Positions 37,515-57,885 of a DNA stretch of 64,000 nt are shown here, in pieces (the stretch's first letter is position 1; the number at the start of each line of letters is the position of its first letter). A program made the translations under genes and the position numbers. Source of the stretch: Xenorhabdus bovienii SS-2004 (GTDB lineage Bacteria; Pseudomonadota; Gammaproteobacteria; Enterobacterales; Enterobacteriaceae); assembly GCF_000027225.1 (NCBI RefSeq), contig NC_013892.1, positions 2,294,001 through 2,358,000 on the forward strand, written 5' to 3'. The notes under the pieces are model-generated. The model worked only from the letters and a program-made list of their open reading frames with translations, did not search any database and was not told where the DNA came from.

Positions 37515-37556
37515 GGATCCTTATGGCAGGGATGCCACAATAATACAATATCATCA

Positions 37557-38279: not shown

Positions 38280-38318
38280 CCATAAATTTATACAGTCTAT
38301 CAAGGTTAGAAAATCATT

Positions 38319-40868
38319 ATGGATAACTACCGTCATTATCTTCAACATAACATTTCTGATAATTTGGTATTATTTATCAAGCCAAGCAAAGTGTTTTTAT
38401 ATGCTGTGACAATCACATGGCTTTTCACTCATTATAATGAGGCTTATGGTGAAGAATATTTTAATATTAATGCGTTGGAAACTCACTCCGGCTTTCCAGA
38501 AGATATTGATCTGTCAATTTTCACTCAAGATGATCAGCAACTACCCGGCCGCTATTGGGTGGATATTTACCTCAATCGGGAAAAAGCAGACACTGGAAAT
38601 GTCGATTTTATCATTGTAAACCATAAGCTATCGCCGAAGATTAACCTACAGCGGTTAAAGAAGATGGGTGTAAATATTGATTCATTTCCCTCTTTGCGTG
38701 ATTTACCACAAGAAACAGAAATAGCCGATCTTGGGCAGCATATTCCATCTGCGTCATCTTTTTTCGACTTCAATAAGCAGCGGCTTGATATCAGTATTCC
38801 CCAAGCTGCTCTGAATAGCCAAGTCAGGGATTATGTTTCATCTCATTTGTGGGAACAGGGGTTAACCTCTCTGCTGGTTAATTATAACTATAGCGGTTCA
38901 ACCAATTGGCTGAATAATCAACCCGGATCGACAAGTAATAATTTTCTCAATCTTAGAACAGGCGCCAATTGGGAAGCATGGCGGTTGCGGAATTACTCTA
39001 CTTACAGCAGCCAAAACCACAAATGGCAAAGTCTTAACACTTACCTGCAACGTGATGTTCATACCCTGAAAAGCCAGTTGGTATTTGGTGACAGTTATAC
39101 ACCTTCCGCCATTTTTGATGGTTTTCAGTTTCGGGGAATGCAATTGGCTTCTGATGACAACATGCTACCTGATAGCCTGAAAGGGTTTGCGCCCACGATA
39201 CGGGGAATAGCCCAAAGTAATGCTCAAGTTACCATTAAACAGAATGGTTATATCATTTATGAAACCTATGTTTCTGCCGGGCCTTTTGTCGTCAGCGATC
39301 TCTACCCAACCACATCCAGTGGTAATCTGGAAATCATTATCAAAGAAGCGGATGGGAGAGAACATCGTTCTGTACAGCCTTTTTCAGCCGTTCCTATCAT
39401 GTTACGGGAGAATAGTTTGCGATATTCCCTGACTCTGGGGAAATATCAATCTTTCACTCATCGTGGCAAAGAACCTTATTTTATGCAGGGTACGGTGATA
39501 TATGGTATTTCCAACCGTGTGACGGTTTATGGTGGAACAACCCTCTCAAAAGATTATCAATCCGCTGCTTTTGGTACAGGATATAGCTTTTCTGATTGGG
39601 GCTCTCTATCCTTTGATGTCACTCATGCAAAATCAGATTTAGCTGAAAATATCAGTGATTCAGGGCAATCATATCGTTTCCAGTATGCAAAAGATCTTTC
39701 CCAGACAGGTACCAACCTCACTTTAGCGGGTTATCGTTATTCAACTCACCGCTTTTATGATTTTAAGGACGCCAATGAGATCGATATTACAAACAACAAG
39801 GACAATCGCAGCAACACCAATAAACGCAGTAAATTGCAACTACACATCAACCAGTCACTGGGGAATTTGGGAAGCGTTTATCTATCTGCTTTTCAGCAAG
39901 ATTACTGGTATCAACAAGGTTACGAACGGAACATCAGCGCGGGTTACAATACCAGTTATCATTCAATTAATTACAATCTGAATTATACCTACAGTGAATT
40001 CCCCGGTTCAAAACACAATGATCAGATTTTATCATTCAGTGTGCAAATCCCGCTTGATCGCTGGCTGAAAAATAGCTGGGTAAGTTATAACCTGACCAAT
40101 AGTAAAAACAGGGATACATCTCATCAGATCAGTCTCAATGGTACAGCCCTGGAAGATAACAATCTGATTTATAGTATCCAGCAAAATTATACCCACCACG
40201 ATAAAGATATTGGCGGGAATATCAGCGCGGAATATAAAGGTGCATATGGCCAGATCAACGCGGGTTACAATTACGATAAACAATCCAAGCAACTGAATTA
40301 CGGCTTAAATGGCGGGATTGTTGCACATCCTTACGGTGTTACGCTTTCCCAATCATTGGGAGATACACTGGCATTAGTACGTGCCCATGGTGCCAAAGGG
40401 GTTAAAGTTCAGAATCATACCGGTATTTCAACAGACTGGAACGGCTATGCCATCGTCCCTTATGTCAGTAGTTATCGTAAAAACCGTATTGCTCTGGATA
40501 CTTATTCAATGGGCAACAATGTTGATATTGATATCAATACACAAACCATCATCCCAACCCAAGGTTCATTGGCTTTAGCCAATTTCCAAACCCGTATTGG
40601 CTATCGCGTTTTGATGATGCTTTCCCATAAAGGTAAAGAGATTCCATTTGGCGCAACAGCAACACTGGAAAAACAACATGACATCGATGACACCAACAGC
40701 ACCATCATCAGTAATGATGGACAGGCTTATCTCAGTGGTGTTCCTAAAACAGGTCGGTTATGGGTGAAATGGGGACACAAAGATATTCAGGAATGTCATG
40801 TGAATTATCAACTTCCTGATGAAATACCGATATCAGGTTTGTACATGGTGAATGCGGCCTGTGAATAA
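38319..40868 (+). CDS. Outer-membrane fimbrial usher (FimD/PapC family)
   Basis: The 849-residue usher begins with an unusually long cytosolic-like lead before the hydrophobic signal segment (about residues 25-45). The usher N-terminal domain (EEYFNINALE, LPGRYWVDIYLN) follows, then the 24-strand barrel with plug (PTIRGIAQSNAQVTIKQNGY, VSAGPFVVSDLYPT), the middle YRVLMMLSHKGKEIPFGA plug-like region, and two C-terminal domains ending with the Cys pair ECHVNYQLP...MVNAACE. It forms the secretion pore and polymerises pilins. Confidence 0.94.
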   Translation: MDNYRHYLQHNISDNLVLFIKPSKVFLYAVTITWLFTHYNEAYGEEYFNINALETHSGFPEDIDLSIFTQDDQQLPGRYWVDIYLNREKADTGNVDFIIVNHKLSPKINLQRLKKMGVNIDSFPSLRDLPQETEIADLGQHIPSASSFFDFNKQRLDISIPQAALNSQVRDYVSSHLWEQGLTSLLVNYNYSGSTNWLNNQPGSTSNNFLNLRTGANWEAWRLRNYSTYSSQNHKWQSLNTYLQRDVHTLKSQLVFGDSYTPSAIFDGFQFRGMQLASDDNMLPDSLKGFAPTIRGIAQSNAQVTIKQNGYIIYETYVSAGPFVVSDLYPTTSSGNLEIIIKEADGREHRSVQPFSAVPIMLRENSLRYSLTLGKYQSFTHRGKEPYFMQGTVIYGISNRVTVYGGTTLSKDYQSAAFGTGYSFSDWGSLSFDVTHAKSDLAENISDSGQSYRFQYAKDLSQTGTNLTLAGYRYSTHRFYDFKDANEIDITNNKDNRSNTNKRSKLQLHINQSLGNLGSVYLSAFQQDYWYQQGYERNISAGYNTSYHSINYNLNYTYSEFPGSKHNDQILSFSVQIPLDRWLKNSWVSYNLTNSKNRDTSHQISLNGTALEDNNLIYSIQQNYTHHDKDIGGNISAEYKGAYGQINAGYNYDKQSKQLNYGLNGGIVAHPYGVTLSQSLGDTLALVRAHGAKGVKVQNHTGISTDWNGYAIVPYVSSYRKNRIALDTYSMGNNVDIDINTQTIIPTQGSLALANFQTRIGYRVLMMLSHKGKEIPFGATATLEKQHDIDDTNSTIISNDGQAYLSGVPKTGRLWVKWGHKDIQECHVNYQLPDEIPISGLYMVNAACE

Positions 40869-40916
40869 CAATACCAGAACATCTATTTGATATTTTTTAT
40901 ATTATGGAAATTTTAT

Positions 40917-41918
40917 ATGATTAGCGGCTTAAAATTATTATTAGCAAGTACGTTTATCGTGGGCATAATGAGTAGTTTTGATGCTCTGGCAAATTATGAC
41001 TGCCAATATTCGCCGGGGTTTTCAGCCGGCACTACCTACGTCTCTTTTGGCACTATCGTTATTCCTAGAGATCATCCTATCGGAACAACCATCAAGGAAA
41101 TTCGGCTGGATCATGTGGATGAAAAAGGCGATATCGCCATCTGTAATACGCTCACTCCTACATCATGGGAGAAACCGGATTTTGATCCGGCACACTACAA
41201 CTATGATGCAATTTATGAATCTGGAGTGCCGGGTGTCGGTATCCGTATCAATACATGGGCTCCCGGCTATGGTATTGATTGGCTACCCAGAACAGCAACA
41301 TACCCAGTCACTTGTTCCCCGCCGCGTCAGTTTCAAAATAAAAAGCAATATTGTGGCCGAACATGGGGTTATTTGACCGTTCAATTAATCAAAATTGCAC
41401 CCGCAACCGGTTCGGGGCCAACTCATCAGAAACTGCTAACCAAAGCCAAATTGGGACTCAATCTCCCTATTCATACTTTCTTTTTGACAAATACTTATAT
41501 CATGACTCAGGGATGTTCCCTCAAGCAAAAAACGACCTTCGTCAATATGGGAGAAATCAGAACCAGTGCATTTCGCGGCATAAATAGCACAGCCGGTATG
41601 CGAAATTTCGAATTAAATCTGGATTGCGATGCCAATGTTAAAGTCGGCGTAACGCTGGATGGACGACCTGCAAAAAGCAATGCCAATAATATCTGGGCAT
41701 TGGATTATAATAGTGACAACGTCACAGCAACCGGAATTGGTTTACAGATCTTATATCAAAATCAACCGTTATCAATGGGTTCTCCGCTTATGATTCACTC
41801 CGTCCAAGCAATAAGAAATTTTGCTATTCCACTGCATGCCCGTTATATCCAAACAGAAGGACGGGTGGCACCAGGCAAAGCAGATGCAACGGCAACTATT
41901 ACGTTGACCTATCAATAA
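40917..41918 (+). CDS. Fimbrial tip adhesin
   Basis: The 333-residue protein has a signal peptide (to about DALA), an N-terminal ~180-residue domain with Cys pairs and aromatic-rich loops (WAPGYGIDWLP) that resembles a two-domain adhesin lectin, and a C-terminal pilin domain from about residue 200 (QGCSLKQKTTFVNMGEI) ending in ATITLTYQ with the beta-zipper pattern. The receptor is unknown. Last gene of the operon. ATG 40917 gives a proper signal peptide; the frame from 40887 adds ten residues. Confidence 0.88.
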   Translation: MISGLKLLLASTFIVGIMSSFDALANYDCQYSPGFSAGTTYVSFGTIVIPRDHPIGTTIKEIRLDHVDEKGDIAICNTLTPTSWEKPDFDPAHYNYDAIYESGVPGVGIRINTWAPGYGIDWLPRTATYPVTCSPPRQFQNKKQYCGRTWGYLTVQLIKIAPATGSGPTHQKLLTKAKLGLNLPIHTFFLTNTYIMTQGCSLKQKTTFVNMGEIRTSAFRGINSTAGMRNFELNLDCDANVKVGVTLDGRPAKSNANNIWALDYNSDNVTATGIGLQILYQNQPLSMGSPLMIHSVQAIRNFAIPLHARYIQTEGRVAPGKADATATITLTYQ

Positions 41919-41985: not shown

Positions 41986-42398
41986 TAGTGGTTAGATTGT
42001 TCGAAAGGCTGCAATTTTACCTCGTTGCCCAGAGAACGATAACAATTAAACGAATAATTATCGTATAAGTAGCTGCTAAAACAACCACTTGCTTTTAATC
42101 CGAGACAGCATATTTATCCTCTTTATCTAGCTAATTTTTCTTAATAATCATACAACTACAATTCATTCACCCCAACATACCCCCTTGCGACGTTTCCGTC
42201 AGCAACAAAATATCGACACCAGGGTTTAATTTAGTTAATTTATCTATAATTACTCATTGCTATATATTTTTTCAGGCAAAAATTCTTATTTTTAGATATG
42301 TTTTAAGTTCGTTTTCCATCCAGGCATTAAGTTAATCAAAGTCAGTAATTATTTTTCATATATCAGTGAGTCTTAACTATTACAAAGGGGAAATGAGT
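41986..42398. other. Leader region of the NRPS gene
   Basis: About 410 bp without a gene, AT-rich, holding the NRPS promoter. No recognised operator is visible. AAAGGGG (42384-42390) is the ribosome binding site. Confidence 0.5.
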
Positions 42399-45300
42399 AT
42401 GTCACACAGCCAAAATCGCTCCTCAGAAATTTCCTTAGCCGTTGATAACAACAACACTCTTCTTCCTCATGTACATCCGTTGAGTTCTCCTCAGCAAGTC
42501 ATCTGGCTCGATCAGGTTATCCATCCCGGTTCTCCCAATTACAATATCGGTTTTTTTATCTGCATCGATGGTGAATTGGATGAAGCCTTGTTCACTCGTG
42601 CTTTTGAAGCTGTTGTTTATCGTCATGACACACTGCGTTTACAGCTCATCAACACCCACACCTTACCGCTGCAAGAGGTGGCTGGTACGCTCCCTGCGTC
42701 CATAGACATACACGATTTATCTCCGCATATCGACGCAGAAGCCCAAGCCAAACAACATATCAATGCCGAGTTCATGCGTCCGTTTCACTTGGATGGAGCA
42801 CTATGGCGTACCGAATTATTACGGGTGAGCCATACACGTCGGTACTGGCATTTTTGCTGTCATCATTTGATCATGGACGGTATTAGTTTATCCATACTCA
42901 GTGAAGATGTTATCGATACCTACAATCGCCTAATGAGGGGAGAAACACTGAACAAAACTGCCCCTTCTTATCTGAATTTCATTACGGATGACCGAGATTA
43001 TCTGGCTTCTCAACGCTACTCACACGATTTGCAATTTTGGGTGAAACGCTATGAAAGTCTGCCGCCGCCATTACTCCCACCAGCAAATTCCAACAAAGCA
43101 GAAAATCACGGACAAGCCAAACCTATTCTTTGGCAAGTAGACAAGGCGCTTTTTCAACGTATCGAAGACACCGTGTCCCGGCAAGGATTATCTATCCTGC
43201 ATTTTATGTATGCCGTTCTGGCTAGCTATTTCAGCCGGACGACGGGGGAGGATGAAATTGTCATCGGCATTCCCGTGCACAACCGTAAAAATGCCCAACA
43301 AAAACGCACTATGGGAATGTTCGCATCCGTTATTCCGATTGGCGTAACAATTTCGCCAGAAGACACGTTCCTTGATGTTATGCACAAAGCCTCTACCGAA
43401 TTGCGTCGTTGCTATAAGCACCAGCGTTTGCCCATTTCGGAGATCAACCGACAAACACATATCCAGCAGAAAACGGGGCGTGTTCAATTATTTGACATTA
43501 CATTGTCACTCGAACCGTTCAAAGCTAACCTGCATATGGCAGGAGAAGATACCAATATCCAATTAGTGGATATACACCATGGTGTACCCTATCCTCTTTC
43601 GATCATCATCGAACAGTACACAACCGGTCTTGACGATGACCTTCAATCCATCACAATTGAATTCGATTTCTCTACCGATTATCTGAGCACCACAGAGGTC
43701 ATGGCTCTCCAATCTCGTCTTGCCGTCTTGATCGACGCCGCCATCACCGCTCTGGATACGCCGATAGTGAATTTGCCCATCTTGCCCGAAGATGAACGCC
43801 AACAGATATTGGTGGATTTCAATGCCACTCAGGCCAATTTCCCGCAAAATGCATTGATTCATCAACTATTCGAAGCACAGGTGCAACGCAATCCTGACGC
43901 CATCGCCGTGGTCTTCGAAGACCAATCCCTAAGTTATGACGAATTGAACCGCCGCGCCAATCGTCTGGCTCATCATCTGATTTCGCTGAATGTGCGTCCA
44001 GACGATCGGGTGGCGGTGTGTGTCGAACGCAGTCTGGATATGGTGGTCGGTTTACTGGGTATCCTCAAGGCCGGTGGAGCTTATGTGCCGCTCGACCCGG
44101 CCTATCCTGCCGAACGGCTGGCGTATATGCTTGATGACGCGGCACCGATGGTTCTGCTCACACAGACGGCGCTGCTCGACACGCTGAGCACCACCATACC
44201 TACGCTGGTGCTCAACGAGCCAGAATCAACCATGGCAACGCAACCGACCCATAATCCGGACGTGCAGGCACTCGGCCTGACGTCACACCATTTAGCCTAT
44301 GTGATCTACACTTCAGGATCCACCGGACTCCCCAAAGGAGTAATGATCGAGCATCACGGCCTGAGTAATCTGATCTCGACACAGCAGGATGTTCTGGCAA
44401 TCGAGCCAGGCAGTCATATCCTGCAATTTGCTTCAAACAGCTTTGACGCCTGTATCTGGGAATGTTGCATGGCTCTACTAGGAGGTGCCTGCCTCCATCT
44501 TGCCCATCGCATACATCTCCTACCCGGTACAGCACTATCGGATACCTTGGAAGCCAATGCCATTACCCATATATTGCTGTCGCCAACAGCGTTAGCTGCA
44601 CTGGATTCAATTCCTGTGACACTACAGACCCTGATCGTAGGTGGAGAAGCCTGCCCATCCTCACTGGTCAAACGCTGGGCTACCAGTCGACGCATGATTA
44701 ATGCCTATGGGCCGACTGAAAGTACCGTCTGTTCAGCTATTTATCTGTGCGATAACCAAGAAGAAAGGACTCCGCCTATCGGCCGTCCAATCGCCAATAC
44801 TCGTATCTATATCCTTGATCCGTATGGGCAGCCCGTTCCTCTTGGCGTGGTCGGCGAAATTCATATCGCCGGTGCCGGCGTAGCCCGCGGCTACCTGAAC
44901 CGTCCTGAATTGACGGCGGAACGCTTCCTGCCCGACCCGTTTTCCGGTATACCAGCAGCACGTATGTACAAAACCGGCGATCTGGGGCACTGGCTACCTG
45001 ACGGCAATATCGAATACCTCGGTCGTAACGATTTTCAGGTCAAGCTGCGCGGCTTCCGTATCGAACTGGCAGAAATTGAGTCTCAACTGGTGCAATGCCA
45101 CGGCGTACGCGAAGCGGTCGTCCTTGCCCGCGAAGACATTTCCGATGAAAATACGCCGGGCGAAAAACGGCTTGTTGCTTATCTGCTCGCTGAACCGAAT
45201 GCGGAACTGGTGCCAGCGGAACTGCGCCAGCAGCTCGCGCAGCACCTTGCCGAGTATATGCTACCCAGCGCCTTTGTAACGCTAGACACCTTCCCGTTGA

Positions 45301-48300
45301 CGCCTAATGGTAAACTCGACCGCCAGGCTCTTCCGGCACCCGATCAGACGGCGGTCGTAGCGCGCATCTACGAAGCACCTGCCGATAAAATGGAAATGGC
45401 ATTGGCTGAGATTTGGCAAGCATTATTGGGGCTGGAAAAGGTGGGACGTTATGACCATTTCTTTGAGCTCGGTGGTCATTCGCTAATGGCGGTGAACCTG
45501 ATCGAACGACTGCGTAGCCGAGGTTGGGTTCTTGACATCCGTACCGTGTTCTCCACACCGATGCTGGCCGAAATGGCGCAGGCCATGCTGCTTGCTCAAG
45601 ACAGTATTGCTGCTTTTAGCGTGCCACCCAATCTCATCCCTGACGGCTGTACCACCATCACACCTGATATGCTACCCCTGATATCCTTGTCCCAGCGCGA
45701 GATTGATACTCTTGCCGCCACCATCCCCGGAGGTGCCGCTAATATTCAGGATATCTACCCACTCGTGTCATTACAGGAAGGCATTCTGTTTCATCACCTG
45801 TTACAACCGCAAGGTGATATTTATCTGTTACGCAACATGCTCGCTTTCGATACTCGTGAAAGTCTCAATGCCTTCCTGACAGCCTTACAACAGGTCATTA
45901 ATCGCCATGATATTCTGCGTACAGCAGTCTACTGGCAGGGGTTAGCACAGCCAGTACAAGTCGTCTGGCGTCAGGCTCTTCTGCACACCGACATATTTGT
46001 ACCGACCAGTGACAAGGACGTCCAATCTCAATTGCTGGCACACACCGATCCAGATCAGCGGTGCCTCAATTTGTGTCAAGCTCCGCTTTTCTCCATCGAT
46101 ATCGCCCATGATCCAATCCAGAACGAGTGGTTGCTGGCTCTGTGCTTCCACCATCTGGTCAGTGACCATATCACCTTGGGACTTATCATCGCTGAAATCA
46201 GCGAATTGTTGCAAAATCGTGCCGAAAACTTACCCGCAACACAGCCTTACCGCAATTTTGTCGCCCAGTCCCTGAGCGTACCGGCTTCAGAGCACGAAAC
46301 TCACTTCCGTGAGATGCTCGCCAGTGTAGATGCGCCGACCACACCCTTCGGGATACTGGATGTCCACAGCGGGAATAGACAGATGACTGAAGCCACGCAT
46401 CTACTTGACGCGATACTGGCCAGAGCCATCCGCACGCAGGCACGCCGTCAAGGTATCAGTCCCAGTGTGCTGTTCCATGTCGCATGGGCGCAGGTGTTAG
46501 CTAAAACCAGCGGGCGGGATGATGTGGTTTTCGGTACAGTCTTACTGGGGCGTATGCAAGGGAGTGCCGGCATCGATCGGAGCCTTGGCCTGTTTATCAA
46601 TACCCTGCCCATAAGGATCCGGCTGGCAGGAAACAGCGTACAAACGACCGTACAAACGGTCTACCGCGATTTGACGAGGCTGCTGGAACACGAGCAGGCA
46701 TCACTTACGCTGGCGCAACACTGTAGTGGTGTAGCACCATCCCTGCCACTCTTCAGCGCACTGCTTAACTATCGCCATAGTCAACCAGAGACAACCTTTG
46801 CCACGTGGGAAGATAAAGGTATACGTCTGTTGGCAGAACAGGAGAGAACCAACTATCCCCTCACCTTGTCCGTGGATGATTTGGGTGAAGGCTTCCGGCT
46901 GGTTGCCCAGACTGTGCCGGATATCGAACCGGCTCGTCTGGCCGCCTATATGACCACCGCTCTTACAGGGCTGGTTGAGGCGTTGGAAACCGAACCTCAA
47001 CGGCCGATCGGGAACCGCTCTATTCTGCCCGCCACCGAGCACCAGCAACTGCTGGTCGATTTCAACGCCACTCAAGTCGATTTCCCACAGTATGCGTTGA
47101 TTCATCAACTGTTCGAAGCGCAAGTACAGCGCACACCAGACGCCACCGCCGTCGTCTTTGAAGACCAATCGCTGAGTTATAACGAGCTAAACCATCGTGC
47201 CAATCGTCTGGCGCACCATCTAATTACGTTGGGGATACGCCCTGATGATCGGGTGGCACTTTATGTCGAACGCAATCTGGCTATGGTAGTCGGTTTATTG
47301 GGTGTTCTAAAAGCTGGCGGAGCCTATGTGCCACTCGACCCGGCTTATCCCGATGAGCGGCTGGCGTATATGCTTGAAGACGCGACACCAAAGGTGATGC
47401 TAACCCAGAAGATGCTCGCCGATCGTCTGGCCAGCACGGTGCCTACGGTTATGCCCATAATAATACTCGACAACCCAGAACCATTGATTGAGGCTATGCC
47501 AACCGATAATCCAGATGTGCGGTCACTGGGTCTGACGTCACGCCATCTAGCATACGTGATCTACACCTCAGGCTCTACCGGTCTGCCCAAGGGAGTGGCG
47601 ATCGAACACCGCAATACGGTGAATTTCCTCACCTGGGTACAACAAGCTTTCCGCCCTGAAGAGCTAGCCCACACTCTTTTCGCTACCTCGCTCAATTTTG
47701 ACTTAGCCGTGTACGAATGTTTTGCACCTTTAATCTCCGGTGGCACAGTTCATCTTGTTTCTGATGCACTTTCGCTGGTTACCAAAAAACCATCGGTCAG
47801 CCTAATCAATACGGTGCCATCGGCTATCACGAATTTGATCGACACTAACGCGATCCCTGCGGCTACCCGAACAGTCAATTTGGCTGGTGAAGCACTGAAA
47901 CCTCACGTTGTCGAACAATTGTTTGCTTGTTCTTCTGTACAGGAGGTGTGCAATTTATACGGCCCTTCGGAGACGACAACCTATTCAACCTGGATACGCA
48001 TGAACCGGATGACTGGCTTTGTCGCTCATATTGGTCGCCCAATCGCCAATACCCAAATTTATATCCTCGACACCGACAGTCAACCTGTCCCGCTCGGTGT
48101 TACAGGGGAGATCTATATCGCTGGTGCCGGTGTTGCCCGTGGCTATCTGAACCGCCCCGAACTGACGGCGGAACGTTTCCTGCCCAATCCCTTCACAACA
48201 ATAGCCGGAGCGCGTATGTACAAGACCGGCGATCTGGGTCGCTGGCTGCCCGACGGCAATATTGAATACCTCGGCCGCAACGATTTTCAGGTTAAGCTGC

Positions 48301-51300
48301 GCGGCTTCCGGATTGAACTCGGAGAAATCGAAGCCAGATTGGTGCAATGCCACGGTGTGAGCGAGGCGGTTGTGATTGCCCGAGAAGATATTTCTGATGA
48401 GAATAGTACAGGTCAGAAGCGTCTGGTTGCCTATCTGCTGCCTCAGGCCGGCGTTGAACTGGTGCCGGCCGAACTGCGCCAACAACTTGCCCAACACCTT
48501 GCCGAGTACATGCAGCCCAGCGCCTTTATGACGCTCGACGCCTTCCCGCTGACCCCCAACGGCAAACTCGACCGACAAGCGCTTCCTGCCCCCGACCTGT
48601 CCGCTATAGTGACACGCGGCTATGAAGCCCCGATTGGTGAAATAGAAATCGCACTGGCTCAGATCTGGCAAGCGTTATTAGGGCTGGAAAGAGTGAGCCG
48701 TTACGACCATTTCTTTGAGCTCGGTGGTCATTCCCTGCTCGCAACCCAGCTTACTTCACGAGTACGCCAGACGCTGGGGTTGGAACTGTCCTTATCCCAA
48801 CTCTTTGCCTACCCTGTCCTCACTGATTTGGCTGCCGTACTCATCAGCGCATCAGTGACCACGCAAACCGTCATTCTGACCGCCGACCGCCGTCAGTCAC
48901 TACCGCTCTCTTTCGCCCAGCAACGCCTGTGGTTCATCGCCCAACTCAATCCTAAGGCCAGTCTGGCCTACCATATTCCTACGGTTCTTCGCCTGCACGG
49001 ACAGTTAGACCACACCGCATTTACAGCCACACTCGATAACCTTGTTGCCCGACAAGAAAGCCTGCGTACACGCTTTGTCCTGATTGGCGAACAGCCTTAC
49101 CAACAAATCGACGACGCAGATATCGGTTTTACCCTGATCTGTCAGGATCTGCGCGGATTAGACGAGGCTTCCCGCCTAACCCGTATTGACGAATTGATGG
49201 AACTCGAAACACAAACCCTGTTTAATTTTGCCAGCGAACCGCTGGTTCGGGGTCAATTGCTGCAATTGGCGGACGAAGAGCATGTGTTGATCCTCACCCA
49301 GCACCATCTCATCACTGACGGTTGGTCAGTGGGGGTATTGATCCACGAACTGAGAGCACTCTACTGTGCTGCTCTTGAGGGGCATGGTGATCCTTTACCG
49401 CCCCTGTCTATTCAATATGCCGACTATGCCGTCTGGCAACGCGAATGGTTGCAGGGTGATATTCTCACTGCACAACGGGATTTCTGGCGAGAGCGACTTC
49501 AGGGCGCACCGACGTTGCTGGCACTGCCCACCGACCGACCACGCCCACCAGAGCAGCGTTACGTCGGCAGTCATGTGCCTATCCATCTGGATGCTGACTT
49601 ATTGACTGCCCTCAAAGCGCTCGGGCAGCGTCAGGGCACAACGTTATTTATGACTCTGCTTACGGCTTGGGGGATAGTGCTTAGCCGTCTGAGTGGTCAG
49701 GACGATATCGTCATCGGCACCCCCGTCGCCAATCGACCACGGAGTGAACTTGAAGGGTTGATCGGCTTTTTCGTCAATACCCTACCTTTGCGTATCGAAT
49801 TGGGGCAGTGCAACACAGTGGCGGAACTTAGCGTGGCAGAACTGCTCGCCCACGTCCGTGAGCGAGCGCTGGCAGCCTATGCTCATCAAGACCTGCCTTT
49901 TGAACAAATAGTGGAAATCCTGCAACCTGAGCGTAGTATGAGCTACAGCCCGATCTTTCAGGTCATGCTGGCGCTGAACAATACCCCCACCCAACCCTTT
50001 GAATTACCCGGTTTATCCGTTTCGTTGGTTGAACAAACACATCACAGCGCGCACTTTGACCTGACATTGTCACTCATTGAAACCGTGGATGATCTCAATG
50101 GTTATCTGGAATATGCCTCGGATCTGTTCGACCGTGCGACGGTTGAGCGCATGGTGGGTTATATCACTCAAGTACTGACCGCCATGGCGGCCGATGAAAC
50201 GCAAGCCATTGCCCGTCTGCCGATGTTGTCTGTTGCCGAACGTCAGCAGTTGTTGGTTGATTTCAACGCCACTCAAGTTGACTTCCCGCAACATGGGCTG
50301 ATTCATCAACTGTTCGAAGCTCAGGTGCAACGCACACCGGACGCCGCTGCCGTAATCTTTGAGAAACACTCACTGAGTTATAGTGAACTCAACCGCCGCG
50401 CCAATCAATTGGCACACAGCCTGATAGCCTTTGGCGTGTGCCCTGATGATCGTGTGGCGATTTGTGTTGAACGGGGTTTGGATATGATCATCGGTCTGTT
50501 CGGGATCTTAAAAGCCGGTGCCGGTTATATCCCACTCGATCCAGAATATCCCACTGAACGGCTGGTTTATCAGTTGTCAGACAGCAAACCTGTCATATTG
50601 CTGACTCAGAAGCATTTACAAACACGCTTCTCAATACAAGACCTGTCCATCTGGCTGCTGGATGATAAAATTCATCAAAATAGCGTAGCGAAACAACCTG
50701 CACATAACCCTGACAGCGAGCAAATTGGGCTTCAACCGCACCATTTGGCCTATATCATCTACACTTCCGGCTCAACCGGACACCCAAAAGGCGTCATGCT
50801 GGAACATCACAATGTCGTGAGCCTTATCCATGCTCAATGCCAGATCAGTAAGCCCAGCTTGGGCGACCGTATTCTGCAATTTGTAACCGTATCATTTGAT
50901 ATTTCGGTGTCAGATATTTTCCCCACCCTTGCATCAGGCGCCACACTGGTTCTGCGTCCACCCCATATCAAAATACCAAATGTCACTTTTGTCGATTTCT
51001 TACGCGAACAGAAAATGACTATCATCAATATCCCGACCGCCTTCTGGCACCATTGGGTACAAGAGATCATGGCAGGACGCGGTGGTTTCAGCCCCTATCT
51101 GCACACCGTGATTGTTGGCGGTGATAAAGTAGAACACCGTTATTTAATGGACTGGTTGTCGTGCCCAGAAACGCAATCCTGCCGTTGGTTCAACGCCTAT
51201 GGCCCCACAGAGATAACCATCACTGCCACGGCACTGATGATAGATGACAAACAGACTCCATCTATGACCGACAACGTTCCGATTGGTCGCCCGCTGTCCA

Positions 51301-53906
51301 ATACCCGCATCTATATTTTGGATGCGCTCGGTCAGCCGGTTCCTGTCGGCGTGAGCGGCGAAATTCATATCGGTGGTATGGGCGTCGCCCGTGGTTATTC
51401 GAACCAACCGGAACTAACCGCAGAGAAATTTGTTGTCGACCCATTCAGCAACCACCCCAACGCCCGTATGTATAAAACCGGCGACTTGGGTCGCTGGCGG
51501 ACTGACGGCAATATCGAATACCTCGGTCGCAATGATTTTCAGGTTAAAATACGCGGTTTCCGTATCGAACTGGGGGAAATCGAAACCAGATTGCTACAAT
51601 GCCACGGCGTGCGTGAGGCTATTGTGCTTCATCGAGAAGTCCTTACCTGTGAAGGTATGCCGGGCGACAAGCGCTTGGTTGCTTATCTGCTCGCCGAACC
51701 GAATGCGGAACTGGTGCCAGCGGAATTGCGCCAGCAGCTCGCGCAGCACCTTGCCGAATATATGCTACCCAGCGCCTTTGTAACACTCGACGCCTTCCCG
51801 CTGGCACCCAATGGCAAGCTCGATCGTCAAGCACTGCCGACGCCGGATCAGGCAGCGATCGTAACCCGTGTTTATGAAGCGCCAGTCGGCGACATAGAAA
51901 TGGCACTGGCCGAGATCTGGCAAGCGTTATTAGGTCTGGAAAAGGTGGGTCGTTATGATCACTTCTTTGAACTCGGTGGCCACTCGCTGATGGTGGTGAG
52001 CCTGATCGAACGGCTGCGTGGGCAAGGTTGGAGCCTTGACATCCGCACCGTGTTCGCCACACCCGTGCTTACCGAAATGGCGAAAGTGATGCTGATAGCC
52101 GGGGATAACGCGGCTACATTTACCGCACCGTCCAATCTCATTCCTGATGGCTGTACCGCCATCACCCCAGACATGTTGCCCCTGATCTCCCTGACGCAAT
52201 GCGAGATTGATGCCATTGCTGCTACCCTTCCCGCTGGTGCTGCTAATATCCAGGATATCTACCCACTCGCCCCGTTACAGGAAGGTATGCTGTTCCACCA
52301 CCTGCTGCAAACACAAGGGGATAATTATCTGTTACATATCTTGCTTACTTTCGACACCCGCGAACGTCTTGATGCCTTTCTGACGGCCTTTCAACAAGTC
52401 ATTGACCGCCACGATATTCTACGCACCGCCTTCTGCTGGCAGAAATTACCCCAGCCAGTGCAAATTGTCTGGCGTCAGGCGCCCCTGCGCATCGACACCT
52501 TTGTGCCGGACAGCGACAAGGACATTCCCGCTCAGTTACTGGCACACACTGACCCGTACCGACACCGCCTTGATATCAGTCAGGCTCCACTCTTATCCAC
52601 CGATATCGCCCATGATCCGCATCAAGATAAGTGGTTACTGGCTCTATGCTGCCACCATATACTCAACGACCATATGTCATTAGATCTCATCATCAATGAA
52701 ATTAACGAACTGCTGTACCATCGTACAGGGGACTTACCTCCTGCACTACCTTACCGTCACTTTATCGCCCAGTCCCTGCGTGTACCGATGTCAGATCACG
52801 AAGCCTATTTCCGTGAGATGCTCGCCGACGTGGATACACCGACTGCGCCTTTCGGAATACTGGATGTCTACAGTGGGAATCGACCGGTAACTGAGGTCAT
52901 AAAACCACTTCGTGCAGCACTGGCCAGAGCTATCCGCACGCAAGCGCGCCGTCAGGGAGTCAGTCCCGGTGTGCTGTTCCATGTCGCGTGGGCGCAGGTG
53001 CTGGCAAAAATAAGCGGGCGGGATGATGTGGTCTTCGGGACAGTCTTGCTGGGGCGCATGCAGGGAAGCGCCGACATTGAGCGGACTCTAGGTCTGTTTA
53101 TCAATACGCTGCCCGTGCGGATCCAACTTGCAGGGAACAGTGTACAGGAGACGGTGAAAGCGGCTTATCGTAGTTTGACACGGTTGCTGGAACACGAGCA
53201 GGCACCATTGGCGCTGGCTCAGCGCTGTAGCGGTGTAACGCCACCCCTGCCACTTTTCAGTTCACTCCTTAACTATCGCCATAGCCAATCGGATATAACC
53301 CGCACTCTATGGGAGGGCATACATCTGACGACTGCACAGGAGAGGACTAACTATCCCCTCTACTTGACTGTGGATGATTTGGGTAAAGGCTTTCTGTTGG
53401 CGGCTCAGACCGTACCGGGTATCGATCCGGCGGGTCTGATCGCCTATATGACTACCGCCTTGGCGGGTCTGGTTGAGGCGTTGGAAACCGAACCTCAACG
53501 GCCGATCCTGAGCCTCTCCATTCTGACTGCCTCCGAACATCGGCAGTTGCAAGATACCTTGACTCAGCACTTCACCCAATCCCACGGAGTGCGTGAAGAA
53601 ACTGCCGTGGCTCGCGGCTATGAAGCCCCCATCGGTGACATGGAAACGGCACTGGCACAAATCTGGCAGAAGCTGCTGAAACGGGAAAAAGTCGGCCGGC
53701 ATGACAATTTCTTTGAGTTGGGCGGCCATTCGCTGACAGCGATACAATTGCTGGCTCGTATGTATGAGCAAAATATGGAGATTCCGTTAGCGGCAGTGTT
53801 CACTCACCCCACTCTGTGTGAGCTGGCCTCAACTGTGGGTAAGCCGACTTCCCCACTTGTCGCTGAGCTATGGACAAAATTAGCAAAGAATTTTTATTCT
53901 AAATAA
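42399..53906 (+). CDS. Four-carrier non-ribosomal peptide synthetase, C-A-T-C/E-A-T-C-A-T-C/E-T
   Basis: A 3835-residue NRPS. By nucleotide position: C1 42480-43790 (HHLIMDG), A1 43850-45350, T1 45410-45600; C/E 45690-47010 (N-terminal HHLLQPQGD, active site HHLVSDH); A2 47095-48590, T2 48650-48850; C 48895-50220 (HHLITDG); A3 50300-51840, T3 51890-52090; C/E 52190-53520 (HHLLQTQGD, HHILNDH); T4 53625-53830 (GGHSL). Hand-read ten-residue codes are DAWLIGAVCK for A1 (Leu/Phe-like), DLYNNALTYK for A2 (Ala-like) and DISIIGAITK for A3 (no known match). The two dual C/E domains imply D-residues 1 and 3. No A or TE domain follows the last C/E, and no MbtH or tailoring gene is near. AAAGGGG favours ATG 42399 over 42366. 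Confidence 0.95.
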   Translation: MSHSQNRSSEISLAVDNNNTLLPHVHPLSSPQQVIWLDQVIHPGSPNYNIGFFICIDGELDEALFTRAFEAVVYRHDTLRLQLINTHTLPLQEVAGTLPASIDIHDLSPHIDAEAQAKQHINAEFMRPFHLDGALWRTELLRVSHTRRYWHFCCHHLIMDGISLSILSEDVIDTYNRLMRGETLNKTAPSYLNFITDDRDYLASQRYSHDLQFWVKRYESLPPPLLPPANSNKAENHGQAKPILWQVDKALFQRIEDTVSRQGLSILHFMYAVLASYFSRTTGEDEIVIGIPVHNRKNAQQKRTMGMFASVIPIGVTISPEDTFLDVMHKASTELRRCYKHQRLPISEINRQTHIQQKTGRVQLFDITLSLEPFKANLHMAGEDTNIQLVDIHHGVPYPLSIIIEQYTTGLDDDLQSITIEFDFSTDYLSTTEVMALQSRLAVLIDAAITALDTPIVNLPILPEDERQQILVDFNATQANFPQNALIHQLFEAQVQRNPDAIAVVFEDQSLSYDELNRRANRLAHHLISLNVRPDDRVAVCVERSLDMVVGLLGILKAGGAYVPLDPAYPAERLAYMLDDAAPMVLLTQTALLDTLSTTIPTLVLNEPESTMATQPTHNPDVQALGLTSHHLAYVIYTSGSTGLPKGVMIEHHGLSNLISTQQDVLAIEPGSHILQFASNSFDACIWECCMALLGGACLHLAHRIHLLPGTALSDTLEANAITHILLSPTALAALDSIPVTLQTLIVGGEACPSSLVKRWATSRRMINAYGPTESTVCSAIYLCDNQEERTPPIGRPIANTRIYILDPYGQPVPLGVVGEIHIAGAGVARGYLNRPELTAERFLPDPFSGIPAARMYKTGDLGHWLPDGNIEYLGRNDFQVKLRGFRIELAEIESQLVQCHGVREAVVLAREDISDENTPGEKRLVAYLLAEPNAELVPAELRQQLAQHLAEYMLPSAFVTLDTFPLTPNGKLDRQALPAPDQTAVVARIYEAPADKMEMALAEIWQALLGLEKVGRYDHFFELGGHSLMAVNLIERLRSRGWVLDIRTVFSTPMLAEMAQAMLLAQDSIAAFSVPPNLIPDGCTTITPDMLPLISLSQREIDTLAATIPGGAANIQDIYPLVSLQEGILFHHLLQPQGDIYLLRNMLAFDTRESLNAFLTALQQVINRHDILRTAVYWQGLAQPVQVVWRQALLHTDIFVPTSDKDVQSQLLAHTDPDQRCLNLCQAPLFSIDIAHDPIQNEWLLALCFHHLVSDHITLGLIIAEISELLQNRAENLPATQPYRNFVAQSLSVPASEHETHFREMLASVDAPTTPFGILDVHSGNRQMTEATHLLDAILARAIRTQARRQGISPSVLFHVAWAQVLAKTSGRDDVVFGTVLLGRMQGSAGIDRSLGLFINTLPIRIRLAGNSVQTTVQTVYRDLTRLLEHEQASLTLAQHCSGVAPSLPLFSALLNYRHSQPETTFATWEDKGIRLLAEQERTNYPLTLSVDDLGEGFRLVAQTVPDIEPARLAAYMTTALTGLVEALETEPQRPIGNRSILPATEHQQLLVDFNATQVDFPQYALIHQLFEAQVQRTPDATAVVFEDQSLSYNELNHRANRLAHHLITLGIRPDDRVALYVERNLAMVVGLLGVLKAGGAYVPLDPAYPDERLAYMLEDATPKVMLTQKMLADRLASTVPTVMPIIILDNPEPLIEAMPTDNPDVRSLGLTSRHLAYVIYTSGSTGLPKGVAIEHRNTVNFLTWVQQAFRPEELAHTLFATSLNFDLAVYECFAPLISGGTVHLVSDALSLVTKKPSVSLINTVPSAITNLIDTNAIPAATRTVNLAGEALKPHVVEQLFACSSVQEVCNLYGPSETTTYSTWIRMNRMTGFVAHIGRPIANTQIYILDTDSQPVPLGVTGEIYIAGAGVARGYLNRPELTAERFLPNPFTTIAGARMYKTGDLGRWLPDGNIEYLGRNDFQVKLRGFRIELGEIEARLVQCHGVSEAVVIAREDISDENSTGQKRLVAYLLPQAGVELVPAELRQQLAQHLAEYMQPSAFMTLDAFPLTPNGKLDRQALPAPDLSAIVTRGYEAPIGEIEIALAQIWQALLGLERVSRYDHFFELGGHSLLATQLTSRVRQTLGLELSLSQLFAYPVLTDLAAVLISASVTTQTVILTADRRQSLPLSFAQQRLWFIAQLNPKASLAYHIPTVLRLHGQLDHTAFTATLDNLVARQESLRTRFVLIGEQPYQQIDDADIGFTLICQDLRGLDEASRLTRIDELMELETQTLFNFASEPLVRGQLLQLADEEHVLILTQHHLITDGWSVGVLIHELRALYCAALEGHGDPLPPLSIQYADYAVWQREWLQGDILTAQRDFWRERLQGAPTLLALPTDRPRPPEQRYVGSHVPIHLDADLLTALKALGQRQGTTLFMTLLTAWGIVLSRLSGQDDIVIGTPVANRPRSELEGLIGFFVNTLPLRIELGQCNTVAELSVAELLAHVRERALAAYAHQDLPFEQIVEILQPERSMSYSPIFQVMLALNNTPTQPFELPGLSVSLVEQTHHSAHFDLTLSLIETVDDLNGYLEYASDLFDRATVERMVGYITQVLTAMAADETQAIARLPMLSVAERQQLLVDFNATQVDFPQHGLIHQLFEAQVQRTPDAAAVIFEKHSLSYSELNRRANQLAHSLIAFGVCPDDRVAICVERGLDMIIGLFGILKAGAGYIPLDPEYPTERLVYQLSDSKPVILLTQKHLQTRFSIQDLSIWLLDDKIHQNSVAKQPAHNPDSEQIGLQPHHLAYIIYTSGSTGHPKGVMLEHHNVVSLIHAQCQISKPSLGDRILQFVTVSFDISVSDIFPTLASGATLVLRPPHIKIPNVTFVDFLREQKMTIINIPTAFWHHWVQEIMAGRGGFSPYLHTVIVGGDKVEHRYLMDWLSCPETQSCRWFNAYGPTEITITATALMIDDKQTPSMTDNVPIGRPLSNTRIYILDALGQPVPVGVSGEIHIGGMGVARGYSNQPELTAEKFVVDPFSNHPNARMYKTGDLGRWRTDGNIEYLGRNDFQVKIRGFRIELGEIETRLLQCHGVREAIVLHREVLTCEGMPGDKRLVAYLLAEPNAELVPAELRQQLAQHLAEYMLPSAFVTLDAFPLAPNGKLDRQALPTPDQAAIVTRVYEAPVGDIEMALAEIWQALLGLEKVGRYDHFFELGGHSLMVVSLIERLRGQGWSLDIRTVFATPVLTEMAKVMLIAGDNAATFTAPSNLIPDGCTAITPDMLPLISLTQCEIDAIAATLPAGAANIQDIYPLAPLQEGMLFHHLLQTQGDNYLLHILLTFDTRERLDAFLTAFQQVIDRHDILRTAFCWQKLPQPVQIVWRQAPLRIDTFVPDSDKDIPAQLLAHTDPYRHRLDISQAPLLSTDIAHDPHQDKWLLALCCHHILNDHMSLDLIINEINELLYHRTGDLPPALPYRHFIAQSLRVPMSDHEAYFREMLADVDTPTAPFGILDVYSGNRPVTEVIKPLRAALARAIRTQARRQGVSPGVLFHVAWAQVLAKISGRDDVVFGTVLLGRMQGSADIERTLGLFINTLPVRIQLAGNSVQETVKAAYRSLTRLLEHEQAPLALAQRCSGVTPPLPLFSSLLNYRHSQSDITRTLWEGIHLTTAQERTNYPLYLTVDDLGKGFLLAAQTVPGIDPAGLIAYMTTALAGLVEALETEPQRPILSLSILTASEHRQLQDTLTQHFTQSHGVREETAVARGYEAPIGDMETALAQIWQKLLKREKVGRHDNFFELGGHSLTAIQLLARMYEQNMEIPLAAVFTHPTLCELASTVGKPTSPLVAELWTKLAKNFYSK

Positions 53907-53979: not shown

Positions 53980-56900
53980 CTACATAGCGATATTTTCCAT
54001 TACCTGCAAAATACGTTTATCCGAAATTGGGTATGCTGTTCCCAATTGTTGGGCAAACAGGCTAATCCGCAGTTCTTCTATCATCCAGCGAACCTCTTTC
54101 ACTTCAGGTAATTGTTTCTGCTGAATAGACAGTTTCGCCAGCCACTGCTGCCATTGCCGTTGGATATTTTCAATCCGGCTCATGTGCACCCTGTCCCTGT
54201 TTGGATCAATCGCCAATTTTTCCAGCCGACGTTCAATGCCATTCAAGTAACGCAAAACATCCGCAAGACGTTTCCAGCCGTGAGCGGTAACAAAACCATT
54301 AAAAACTAAACCGGAAATTTGTTCTTTAATATCCGACAAGGCAAGCGCGAGTGCGATATCCACCCTTCCTTTCAAACGTTTATTAATAGAAAAAACAGTC
54401 GTCAAGATCTGCTCGACCTGTCTGGCTATATCGACCACTGCATCATTTAAGTCAGCCCGAACTTTATTCTGTAAACTTGCAAATGCTTCTTCATTCCATG
54501 CCGGCCCACCATTTTCTGCGATTAATCTATCTACACCGCAGGAAATGCAGTCATCAATCAGATCCAGCACTTTTCCATAGGGATTAAAGTACAGCCCCAG
54601 TTTAGATTTGTTAGGTAATTTCTCATGCAGGTACTTAATCGGTGACGGAATATTCATTAGCAGCAATCGACGGGTTCCTTCCCACATTGCGTTTTGCTGT
54701 TCAGATTCAGTCTCGAAAAGTTTAATACCGATGCTGTCTTTTTCATCCACCAAGGCCGGAAATGCCTTAACAGAATAACCTCCGCGTTTCTGCTCGTAAC
54801 GTTCAGGCAATTCGCCAAAGCTCCAGATATGCAGTCCGCTTTGTTCAATGCCATCATCCGCTACCGCCGAGAGTGTTTCCTGTACTTTCCCTTTCAATTG
54901 CAGCTTCAGTGCAGACAGAACCTTACCTTCCGCCAGCGGTTTGTTTTTCTCACCAATGATACGGAATGTGATTTTCAGATGATCAGGAATCTGATCCCAC
55001 TGCCAATCATCACGTGACACTGTCACCCCCGTCATACGACGGAGTTCTTTCTCAAAACTATCCAGTAAGGTAGCCTGCGGCTGTGTTATCCGCTCCAAAA
55101 ATGCCTGTGCATAGTTAGGTGCAGGCACAAAATTCCGACGTACGGGTTTTGGCAGGGATTTAATCAATGCAACGACCAGGTCATGACGAATTCCCGGAAT
55201 TTGCCAGTCAAAGCCTTCATCCTTAACTTGATTCAAGATCGGCAACGGAATATGCACGGTGACACCATCCGCATCCGTTCCTGGCTCAAACTGGTAACTC
55301 AAACGGAATTTCAAATTGTCTTGATACCAATAGTTGGGATAATCCGAAGCACTAATTTTATCTGCATCCCCTTTGATTAACATGCTCTTTTCAAAGTTGA
55401 GCAGTTCAGGTTGATCTTTACTGGCGACTTGCCACCAGCGATCAAAATGTCGGGAAGACATGACTTCTTTACCGATTCGCTGATCGTAGAAACTGAACAA
55501 GGTTTCATCATCCACCAGAATATCCCGACGGCGGGATTTATGCTCCAGTTCTTCGACTTCTTCGCGTAACTTGAGATTGGCACGGAAAAATGAGTGGCGG
55601 GTCTGCCAGTCTCCTTCCACCAATGCATGGCGGATGAACAACTCCCGACATAACATTGGATCAATCTGGCTATAATTCACTAAACGTCCCGCCACAATCG
55701 GCAAACCATACAACGTCACTTTTTCCGTTGCCATCACCGCACCTTGAGATTTCTGCCAATGCGGTTCGCTGTAATGGTGTTTGATTAAATGTGCTGCCAA
55801 TGGCTCGATCCATTCAGGTTCAATACGTGCAGCAATACGCCCCCATAATCGGCTGGTTTCCACCAATTCAGCCACCATTCCCCATTTAGGTGGTTTTTTG
55901 AATAATCCTGAGCCCGGAAATACAGAAAAACGAGCATTACGTGCACCAGTATATTCCTGTTTATCGGTATCCTTCTGACCGACATGAGATAACAGACCCG
56001 TCAACAACGCAATATGGATACTGCGGTAATCCGCTTCTTGACTGTTTATCGGCAGGCCAATTTCTTTAACAACCTGCCGAAGCTGAGTATAGACATCCTG
56101 CCACTCCCTCACTCTGAGGTAATTCAGATAGTCCTGGCGGCACAGTTTGCGGAATTGTGAGCTGGAAAGCGCTTTCTGCTGCTCAACCAGAAAATCCCAC
56201 AATTTCAGGAATGTGATGAAATCAGAATCTTTATCTGCGAAACGACGGTGTTTTTCATCAGAAGCCTGCTGTTTTTCCAGCGGCCTTTCCCGTGGATCTT
56301 GAATAGATAACGCAGAGGTAATAACCATGACTTCACGGACACAACCATGCGCTCTTGCTTCCAACACCATACGCGCCAATCTTGGGTCGATAGGCAGTTG
56401 TGCAAGTTGCTGCCCCATTTGTGTCAGCCGGTAAGTTCCGCCTGACAGGGATTCCGGATCAATGGCTCCCAGTTCTTCCAGCAAACGGACACCATCTTGA
56501 ACATTACGTTTATCCGGCGCTTCAACAAACGGGAATGCGCTCACATCGCCCAAACCAATGGAGGTCATCTGCAAAATGACAGAAGCTAAATTAGTACGCA
56601 GAATCTCAGGATCGGTAAATTCCGGACGAGATAAATAATCGTCTTCCGAGTAGAGCCGGATACAGATCCCATCTGAAACACGACCACAGCGGCCTTTGCG
56701 CTGATTAGCAGATGCCTGTGAAATCGGCTCTATCGGCAGACGCTGGACTTTGGTTCGATAACTGTATCGGCTGATACGTGCAAAACCGGTATCAATGACA
56801 TATTTGATACCAGGCACGGTCAGCGATGTTTCTGCAACGTTAGTGGCCAATATAATTCTGCGCCCGACATGCGGCTGAAATATCCGGTTCTGGTCGCTGT

Positions 56901-57885
56901 TAGATAAACGGGCAAACAGGGGCAGGATTTCAGTATGCGGAAAGTTCTGTTTATCTAGTGCATCCGCCGTATCACGGATTTCCCGCTCCCCGCTCATAAA
57001 CACCAGAATGTCGCCTGAACTTTCATGCCCCAATTCATCTACAGCACCAATAATAGCTTCGAGTTGATCCCGATCGCTGTCATTATCATCGCCTGCCACC
57101 GGACGATACCGAATTTCCACTGGATAAGTACGGCCAGAGACTTCAATAATTGGTGCATTGTTGAAATGGCGGGAAAAACGCTCAGGATCAATCGTCGCGG
57201 AGGTAATGATAATTTTTAGATCAGGACGTTTAAGCAGCAACTGGCGCAAGTAGCCAAGGATAAAATCAATGTTCAGGCTGCGTTCATGCGCTTCATCAAT
57301 AATCAGCGTGTCATATTGCAGCAGCAGGCGATCTTGCTGCAATTCTGCCAGCAGAATACCGTCCGTCATTAACTTGACCAGCGTATTCTCGCTGACATGA
57401 TCATTAAAACGTACTTTATAACCAACGGTTGAGCCAAGCGGAGTTTCCAGTTCATCCGCAATACGGCTGGCAACCGAGCGTGCTGCCAGGCGACGAGGCT
57501 GCGTATGACCAATTAACCCTTTAACCCCTCTTCCCAACTCAAGGCAGATTTTGGGGATCTGGGTTGTTTTACCTGAACCCGTTTCTCCCGCGATAATAAC
57601 CACTTGATTATCCCGAATTGCTTTGTAGATATCGTCTTTTTTCTGGCTAACCGGCAGGTTTTCAGGGTATTTAATCGGGGGACATGAGGCTTGACGATTG
57701 ATAACTTTCTGTTTTGCAGTGGCGATATCTCCAGAAATGGATTGTGCCACGGCCTGTAAGGAGGCCTGATTTTTGATTTTTGCTGCCCCATGCAGACGTT
57801 TTTTCAACCGGAACTGATCGCGCAGTGGCGTGTGCTCAAGTTCAGCGAATAATTCAGCAAACGATGCTGTCAAAGGTGATTCCAC
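53980..57885 (-). CDS. hrpA: HrpA, DEAH-box ATP-dependent RNA helicase
   Basis: The 1301-residue protein (E. coli HrpA 1300) has Walker A GETGSGKT at residues 100-107, DEAH at 197-200, the SAT motif III (ITSATID), and motif VI QRKGRCGR. The DEAH-type ratchet/OB region and a long family-specific C-terminal extension follow. HrpA acts on ribosomes and mRNA; in E. coli it helps resolve collided ribosomes and processes fimbrial mRNA. It is divergent from azoR, as the neighbour order hrpA-azoR in E. coli. Confidence 0.97.
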   Translation of the reverse strand: MESPLTASFAELFAELEHTPLRDQFRLKKRLHGAAKIKNQASLQAVAQSISGDIATAKQKVINRQASCPPIKYPENLPVSQKKDDIYKAIRDNQVVIIAGETGSGKTTQIPKICLELGRGVKGLIGHTQPRRLAARSVASRIADELETPLGSTVGYKVRFNDHVSENTLVKLMTDGILLAELQQDRLLLQYDTLIIDEAHERSLNIDFILGYLRQLLLKRPDLKIIITSATIDPERFSRHFNNAPIIEVSGRTYPVEIRYRPVAGDDNDSDRDQLEAIIGAVDELGHESSGDILVFMSGEREIRDTADALDKQNFPHTEILPLFARLSNSDQNRIFQPHVGRRIILATNVAETSLTVPGIKYVIDTGFARISRYSYRTKVQRLPIEPISQASANQRKGRCGRVSDGICIRLYSEDDYLSRPEFTDPEILRTNLASVILQMTSIGLGDVSAFPFVEAPDKRNVQDGVRLLEELGAIDPESLSGGTYRLTQMGQQLAQLPIDPRLARMVLEARAHGCVREVMVITSALSIQDPRERPLEKQQASDEKHRRFADKDSDFITFLKLWDFLVEQQKALSSSQFRKLCRQDYLNYLRVREWQDVYTQLRQVVKEIGLPINSQEADYRSIHIALLTGLLSHVGQKDTDKQEYTGARNARFSVFPGSGLFKKPPKWGMVAELVETSRLWGRIAARIEPEWIEPLAAHLIKHHYSEPHWQKSQGAVMATEKVTLYGLPIVAGRLVNYSQIDPMLCRELFIRHALVEGDWQTRHSFFRANLKLREEVEELEHKSRRRDILVDDETLFSFYDQRIGKEVMSSRHFDRWWQVASKDQPELLNFEKSMLIKGDADKISASDYPNYWYQDNLKFRLSYQFEPGTDADGVTVHIPLPILNQVKDEGFDWQIPGIRHDLVVALIKSLPKPVRRNFVPAPNYAQAFLERITQPQATLLDSFEKELRRMTGVTVSRDDWQWDQIPDHLKITFRIIGEKNKPLAEGKVLSALKLQLKGKVQETLSAVADDGIEQSGLHIWSFGELPERYEQKRGGYSVKAFPALVDEKDSIGIKLFETESEQQNAMWEGTRRLLLMNIPSPIKYLHEKLPNKSKLGLYFNPYGKVLDLIDDCISCGVDRLIAENGGPAWNEEAFASLQNKVRADLNDAVVDIARQVEQILTTVFSINKRLKGRVDIALALALSDIKEQISGLVFNGFVTAHGWKRLADVLRYLNGIERRLEKLAIDPNRDRVHMSRIENIQRQWQQWLAKLSIQQKQLPEVKEVRWMIEELRISLFAQQLGTAYPISDKRILQVMENIAM

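Follow-up and report, generated by a model that had tools for sequence, protein, structure and literature searches.

A Xenorhabdus bovienii NRPS, almost certainly LpcS, ends in a C/E-carrier module without an A or thioesterase domain

A single NRPS gene of Xenorhabdus bovienii SS-2004, lying in the 64,000-nucleotide stretch analysed here (the window), ends in a dual condensation/epimerisation (C/E) domain and a carrier (T) domain, with neither an A domain nor a thioesterase (TE). The gene is almost certainly lpcS, which encodes the lipocitide/bovienimide synthetase of Xenorhabdus. In this very strain, LpcS is described as making acyl-D-Leu-L-Ala-D-Cit whose C terminus is an acid or an amide, and the myristoyl-D-Leu-L-Ala-D-Cit amide and acid are lipocitides A and B (Shi et al. 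2022, PMC9177418). The same article reports that lpcS is silent in the laboratory, that the product appears once the gene is induced, and that lipocitides reduce nitric oxide in insect haemolymph and suppress insect immunity. It also equates the lipocitides with the bovienimides of the Crawford laboratory (Li et al. 2021, J Nat Prod 84:2692), so that the bovienimide synthetase makes the same compounds; MIBiG entry BGC0002135 covers bovienimide A from X. bovienii SS-2004 (PMC12383660).

Genus, single gene, tetramodular plan and terminal T3-C/E4-T4 are all shared with the LpcS of Shi et al., and we found no difference from the enzyme as described in the accessible part of that article (PMC9177418). 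Both the synthetase with its odd ending and the compound it makes have thus been published already. The published product also contradicts the broken assembly line that the original prediction had offered as one possibility: lpcS is functional, by conservation and by publication. The nearest named relative of the protein is LpcS of X. bovienii T228, with 92.4% identity.

Layout of the synthetase and its surroundings

The open frame extends from a GTG at 42366 to 53906. The ATG at 42399 appears the likelier start, judged by AAAGGGG at 42384-42390, 8 bases 5' of it, and gives a product of 3835 aa. Pfam found four Condensation (E 1.1e-287), three AMP-binding (2.2e-263), three AMP-binding_C and four PP-binding domains in 42399-53903, and no further family at E 0.001. 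Profiles built from the protein's own domains place these in the order C-A-T-C-A-T-C-A-T-C-T (Table 1). In addition to HHxxxD, dual C/E domains have HH[I/L]xxxxGD, a second His motif, towards their N terminus (PMC1894796). C2 and C4 have this motif (HHLLQPQGD and HHLLQTQGD) and C1 and C3 lack it, which bears out the domain order first proposed, with C/E domains second and fourth; by these motifs, C/E domains at positions 2 and 4 with a plain C domain at 3 match D-L-D stereochemistry. The predicted ending holds as well. PP-binding (5.5e-14) is the only family in the final 129 residues, Pfam found no TE there or in the full protein, and 53520-53906 contains neither an A nor a TE domain.

Table 1. 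Coordinates of lpcS, its parts and the downstream neighbour (window positions)
Feature	Position	Strand	Basis or remark
lpcS-type gene, 3835 aa, C-A-T-C/E-A-T-C-A-T-C/E-T	42399..53906	+	ORF list, Pfam, own-domain profiles, start-site reading
C1, starter-type by position, HHLIMDG	42471..43811	+	Starter role inferred from published N-acyl product
A1 + T1, specificity residues DAWLIGAVC (Leu-like)	43839..45620	+	Profiles, code reading
C/E2, dual motif HHLLQPQGD + HHLVSDH	45753..47054	+	Profiles, motif reading
A2 + T2, specificity residues DLY.NALTY (Ala-like)	47082..48875	+	Profiles, code reading
C3, without second His motif	48894..50255	+	Profiles, motif reading
A3 + T3, specificity residues DISNIGAIT	50283..52124	+	Profiles; citrulline assigned solely from published product
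C/E4, dual motif HHLLQTQGD + HHILNDH	52257..53552	+	Profiles, motif reading
C4-T4 linker, site of presumed lost A4	53553..53657	+	Weak A-domain trace only in the window's strain
T4, GGHS intact, terminal domain	53658..53870	+	Profiles
hrpA helicase (helicase domains + DUF3418)	53980..57885	-	Pfam; 73 bases from lpcS, convergent

The A-domain specificity positions were located via motif anchors, with residue 278 misplaced in A2. We take DAWLIGAVC in A1 to be a Leu-like code and DLY.NALTY in A2 to be an Ala-like one. On this reading Leu would suit A1 and Ala would suit A2, and DISNIGAIT in A3 corresponds to no code known to us for citrulline.

Of the 38 ORFs of at least 150 aa in the window, ten neighbours of lpcS were put through Pfam. 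Upstream, at 36906-41918, is a fimbrial operon of the chaperone-usher type whose tip adhesin is MrkD-like. The helicase gene hrpA does directly follow lpcS, as first noted, but on the opposite strand, and was rejected as a partner. Among 17 full lpcS genes, the window's included, hrpA occurs in the fetched flank of the window and of X. bovienii T228 only (97% identical to the window's), a count in which two loci, one of them with 155 bases of downstream flank (L003, the other being L012), end soon after lpcS.

Across the whole genome there are 56 Condensation, 15 Thioesterase and 65 AMP-binding matches, of which the window holds 4, 0 and 3, all inside lpcS, and no A or TE partner is thus present in the window, as the original prediction said. 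Further afield the genome does contain candidates of the kinds it named: two stand-alone Thioesterase (PF00975) genes (261 and 245 aa), 14 AMP-binding matches in frames shorter than 700 aa, a class that includes acyl-CoA ligases, and two MbtH matches, at 1402934 and 549414, distant from the window.

Conservation of LpcS and of its terminal module

All 51 loci returned by a contig scan of public genomes are from Xenorhabdus. By size and identity, 16 were taken as full LpcS and the 35 others (other NRPS loci, fragments) were set aside. In a set of 30 Xenorhabdus genomes, which overlaps with these 16 loci (L002 and G018, for example) and is therefore not independent of them, the T3-C/E4-T4 unit occurs in 27; 26 of these units are near full length in the genome search and that of G001 was completed from further reading. 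The unit is absent from G006, G016 and G024 (the last genome 82% complete), whose best matches (3.8e-195, 3.9e-185 and 1.1e-29, respectively) score like other NRPS modules. The 27 of 30 is close to the 28 of 29 strains given in the published account (PMC9177418). Two of the 27, G020 and G026, are counted without a reading of their domain order, and in a C4-T4 tree of 31 rows their units cluster with a paralog in G019 rather than with lpcS proper.

Outside the genus, no match listed spans the unit in the 117 other-genus genomes among 119 of the family, with at most 10 candidates scored per genome, and the best of the listed other-genus matches cover T-C only, at 45-47% identity. A plasmid protein search gave matches below 60% identity in 766 records, which we took as ordinary NRPS modules. 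Within these searches, LpcS is specific to Xenorhabdus and near universal in the genus.

The second His motif and HHxxNDH of C4 and the serine of T4 are kept in all 27 genomes with the unit. In C2, the HH of the motif is HY in 11 of the 17 full proteins and YY in one; it is intact in the window. With the C2 motif altered in 12 of 17 and that of C4 in none, C4 is the more strictly kept. In 27/27 genomes the unit sits in an uninterrupted frame of 3830 aa or more, the 17 full genes having been picked as open frames to begin with. For eight chosen pairs, which share members, dN/dS is 0.12-0.19 in C4 and 0.06-0.27 in T4, against 0.06-0.32 in the other domains plus one T2 measurement at 0.72. The linker between C4 and T4 is less constrained (0.25-1.29), and the values for T domains (~70 codons) and the linker (35 codons) are noisy. 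Neither relaxed selection (eight pairs) nor motif loss (27 genomes) was found in C4 or T4, which argues that the terminal module is not debris.

Other parts of the protein differ among species. The A2 residues are DLY.NALTY in 5 of the 17 proteins and DVW..SL.., which we presume to be Ser-like, in 11, so position 2 of the product should vary in most species. In one protein (L009) the specificity residues of both A1 and A2 deviate. In the 12 of 17 proteins without the second His of C2, the window's not being one of them, residue 1 may no longer be D.

The surroundings of lpcS were compared through the neighbour families present in at least three loci, among the 40 families listed, with gene names assigned by eye. 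An ORF resembling short-chain dehydrogenases lies shortly downstream of lpcS in 11 of 17 loci. Flagellar-type genes lie upstream in eight (L005, L006, L012, L013, L016, L019, L033 and L047), which indicates that the surroundings vary by species.

Release of the chain and thioesterases in relatives

So, how does the chain leave an enzyme that ends in this way? C1 would acylate Leu on T1, C/E2 would convert Leu to the D form and join it to Ala, and C3 would add citrulline on T3. As no other condensation-type domain is left for that residue, C/E4 very probably epimerises it to D-Cit. Module 4 would now add no residue and would act as an epimerisation and off-loading stage; the product has no fourth amino acid, and T4 is hence no ordinary elongation carrier. 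As D-Cit is the last residue of both published products, release comes after epimerisation by C/E4. A dipeptide shed ahead of the next C/E domain in Pseudomonas has the L form (PMC12038845), and this fits such an order of events in LpcS. Since there would be no aminoacyl-T4 to attack the chain, it is probably water or ammonia that takes the chain off, giving the acid and the amide.

No release mechanism for LpcS was found in the literature searched, which was covered in part. Release may be helped by the C/E4 active site or by a TE in trans, or may be plain chemistry without a catalyst. We tentatively suggest that the loss of its A domain turned module 4 from an elongation into a release module, in which C/E4, while docked on holo-T4, would carry out the epimerisation and itself admit ammonia or water as the acceptor. 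If true, this would be a TE-independent NRPS route to D-ended peptide amides. The rhabdopeptide/xenortide NRPSs of the same genera also release their products without a TE, through a terminal C domain that condenses the chain with a free amine. Those enzymes end in the C domain, whereas in LpcS a carrier comes after the C/E domain. Photoxenobactins have amide ends too, but the legend to their assembly line lists a TE (PMC9177418), making them a loose parallel only.

The relatives offer a natural comparison. In 26 of 27 proteins the chain ends 39-58 residues past the T4 serine, and LpcS of X. lircayensis (L002/L124) alone continues, for 347 residues, and ends in a thioesterase (PF00975, 5.7e-30). 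This ortholog is 79.7% identical to the window's LpcS and has the same C-A-T-C-A-T-C-A-T-C-T order; it differs in the added TE after T4. With 26 proteins stopping after T4 and one with a TE, the origin of acid and amide becomes directly testable. The X. lircayensis genome encodes, in a different NRPS frame, a TE 79% identical to that of its LpcS, which fits a gain by recombination, and X. lircayensis is placed in an open fork of the C4-T4 tree. An 8104-aa NRPS frame in the window's genome ends in the same type of TE (62% identical). On the lpcS strand of X. budapestensis, ~4 kb downstream of that gene, there is a stand-alone TE ORF of 286 aa (L019:25798-26655), 70% identical to the X. lircayensis LpcS TE. 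X. indica, the sister of X. budapestensis, has a 59-residue TE remnant in a like place (L016:26254-26430, 47% identical). The free TE and the remnant fit an older link of a TE to lpcS.

These fused, free and remnant forms lend some weight to release in trans by a stand-alone TE, with T4 merely docking C/E4, as do the two stand-alone PF00975 genes of the genome and a Pseudomonas shunt lipodipeptide whose presumed releasing enzyme is a thioesterase from another locus (PMC12038845). We nevertheless consider this route unlikely for LpcS: a TE alone would yield the acid and leave the carboxamide unexplained, and the 10 kb around lpcS hold no TE match in the window or in 13 other loci of the 17, bar a negligible match of fewer than 20 residues in L001, some contigs ending near lpcS (155 bases downstream in L003). 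The original prediction had the tripeptide staying on T3/T4 until another enzyme released it; the published acylated product with its acid or amide end supports the tripeptide part of this reading.

In a second route, T4 would receive a fourth amino acid, such as glycine, by loading in trans; this residue would be condensed with the chain and then cleaved so that the amide remained. Intact in 27/27 genomes, the T4 serine and the C/E4 motifs would allow it, loading of this kind is known for modules without a working A domain (review, PMC8949500), and the genome has 65 AMP-binding matches. Four of the 17 loci (L002, L008, L009 and L034) also have NRPS ORFs with C and A domains at a distance of up to 10 kb from lpcS. 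The window is not one of these, and the available flank, up to 10 kb, holds no A-domain ORF in 13 of 17 loci, the window's among them. The published products are tripeptides (PMC9177418), and the acid form would need a separate route. We regard this route as improbable, and the A domain acting in trans on T4 that was first suggested is unsupported, the product lacking a fourth residue unless one is cut off in this way. The preferred reading stays with water or ammonia acting on the chain.

Origin of the module without an A domain

Module 4 very probably began as a C/E-A-T module and lost its A domain through an in-frame deletion. Modules 1-3 supplied profiles for the two junctions that flank an A domain, C-to-A and A-to-T, and these were run on the 17 C4-T4 linkers and on 1700 shuffles. 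With the C-to-A profile, 11 linkers reach 17.6-33.0 bits, above the best shuffle (7.1 bits), and that of L034 (7.3 bits) is at best-shuffle level. The A-to-T profile reaches 11.6-21.8 bits in six linkers (best shuffle 9.5). Both junctions are found, in order, in four (L004, L007, L009 and L013), so that in these linkers the first part of an A domain runs directly into the last. The own-domain A profile independently marks an A tail in three linkers, all among those four.

In the linkers of the window and X. bovienii T228 neither junction profile rises above the shuffles, and a short A8-like piece scores weakly (5.6 and 7.7 bits against 4.2). From the linker data taken together we infer that A4 was probably lost once, in frame, before these species diverged, and that the linker eroded afterwards. 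The deletion edges kept in relatives suggest a route from a normal module to such an end.

The same edges, with a TE that is fused, free or a remnant in a few relatives and a gene that is silent in the laboratory (PMC9177418), could also be what an assembly line leaves behind when it decays, A4 and TE lost and the remainder on its way out. We find this hardly credible. The frame is open over at least 3830 aa in 27/27 genomes (17 full genes having been chosen as open frames), the C4 and T4 motifs are kept in all 27 with dN/dS like that of the other domains, and the product is made on induction (PMC9177418). Loss of A4, with the C/E-T remainder retained for epimerisation and off-loading, would be the reading we prefer.

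A second LpcS-like frame, the G019 paralog, lies upstream of lpcS (L120:2719-16893). It is pentamodular, with the order C(partial)-A-T-C-A-T-C-A-T-C-A-T-C-T, the first C match being without the N-terminal part that bears HHxxxDG. Its final three A codes resemble Leu-Ala-Cit, and it too ends in a C/E-T without an A domain.
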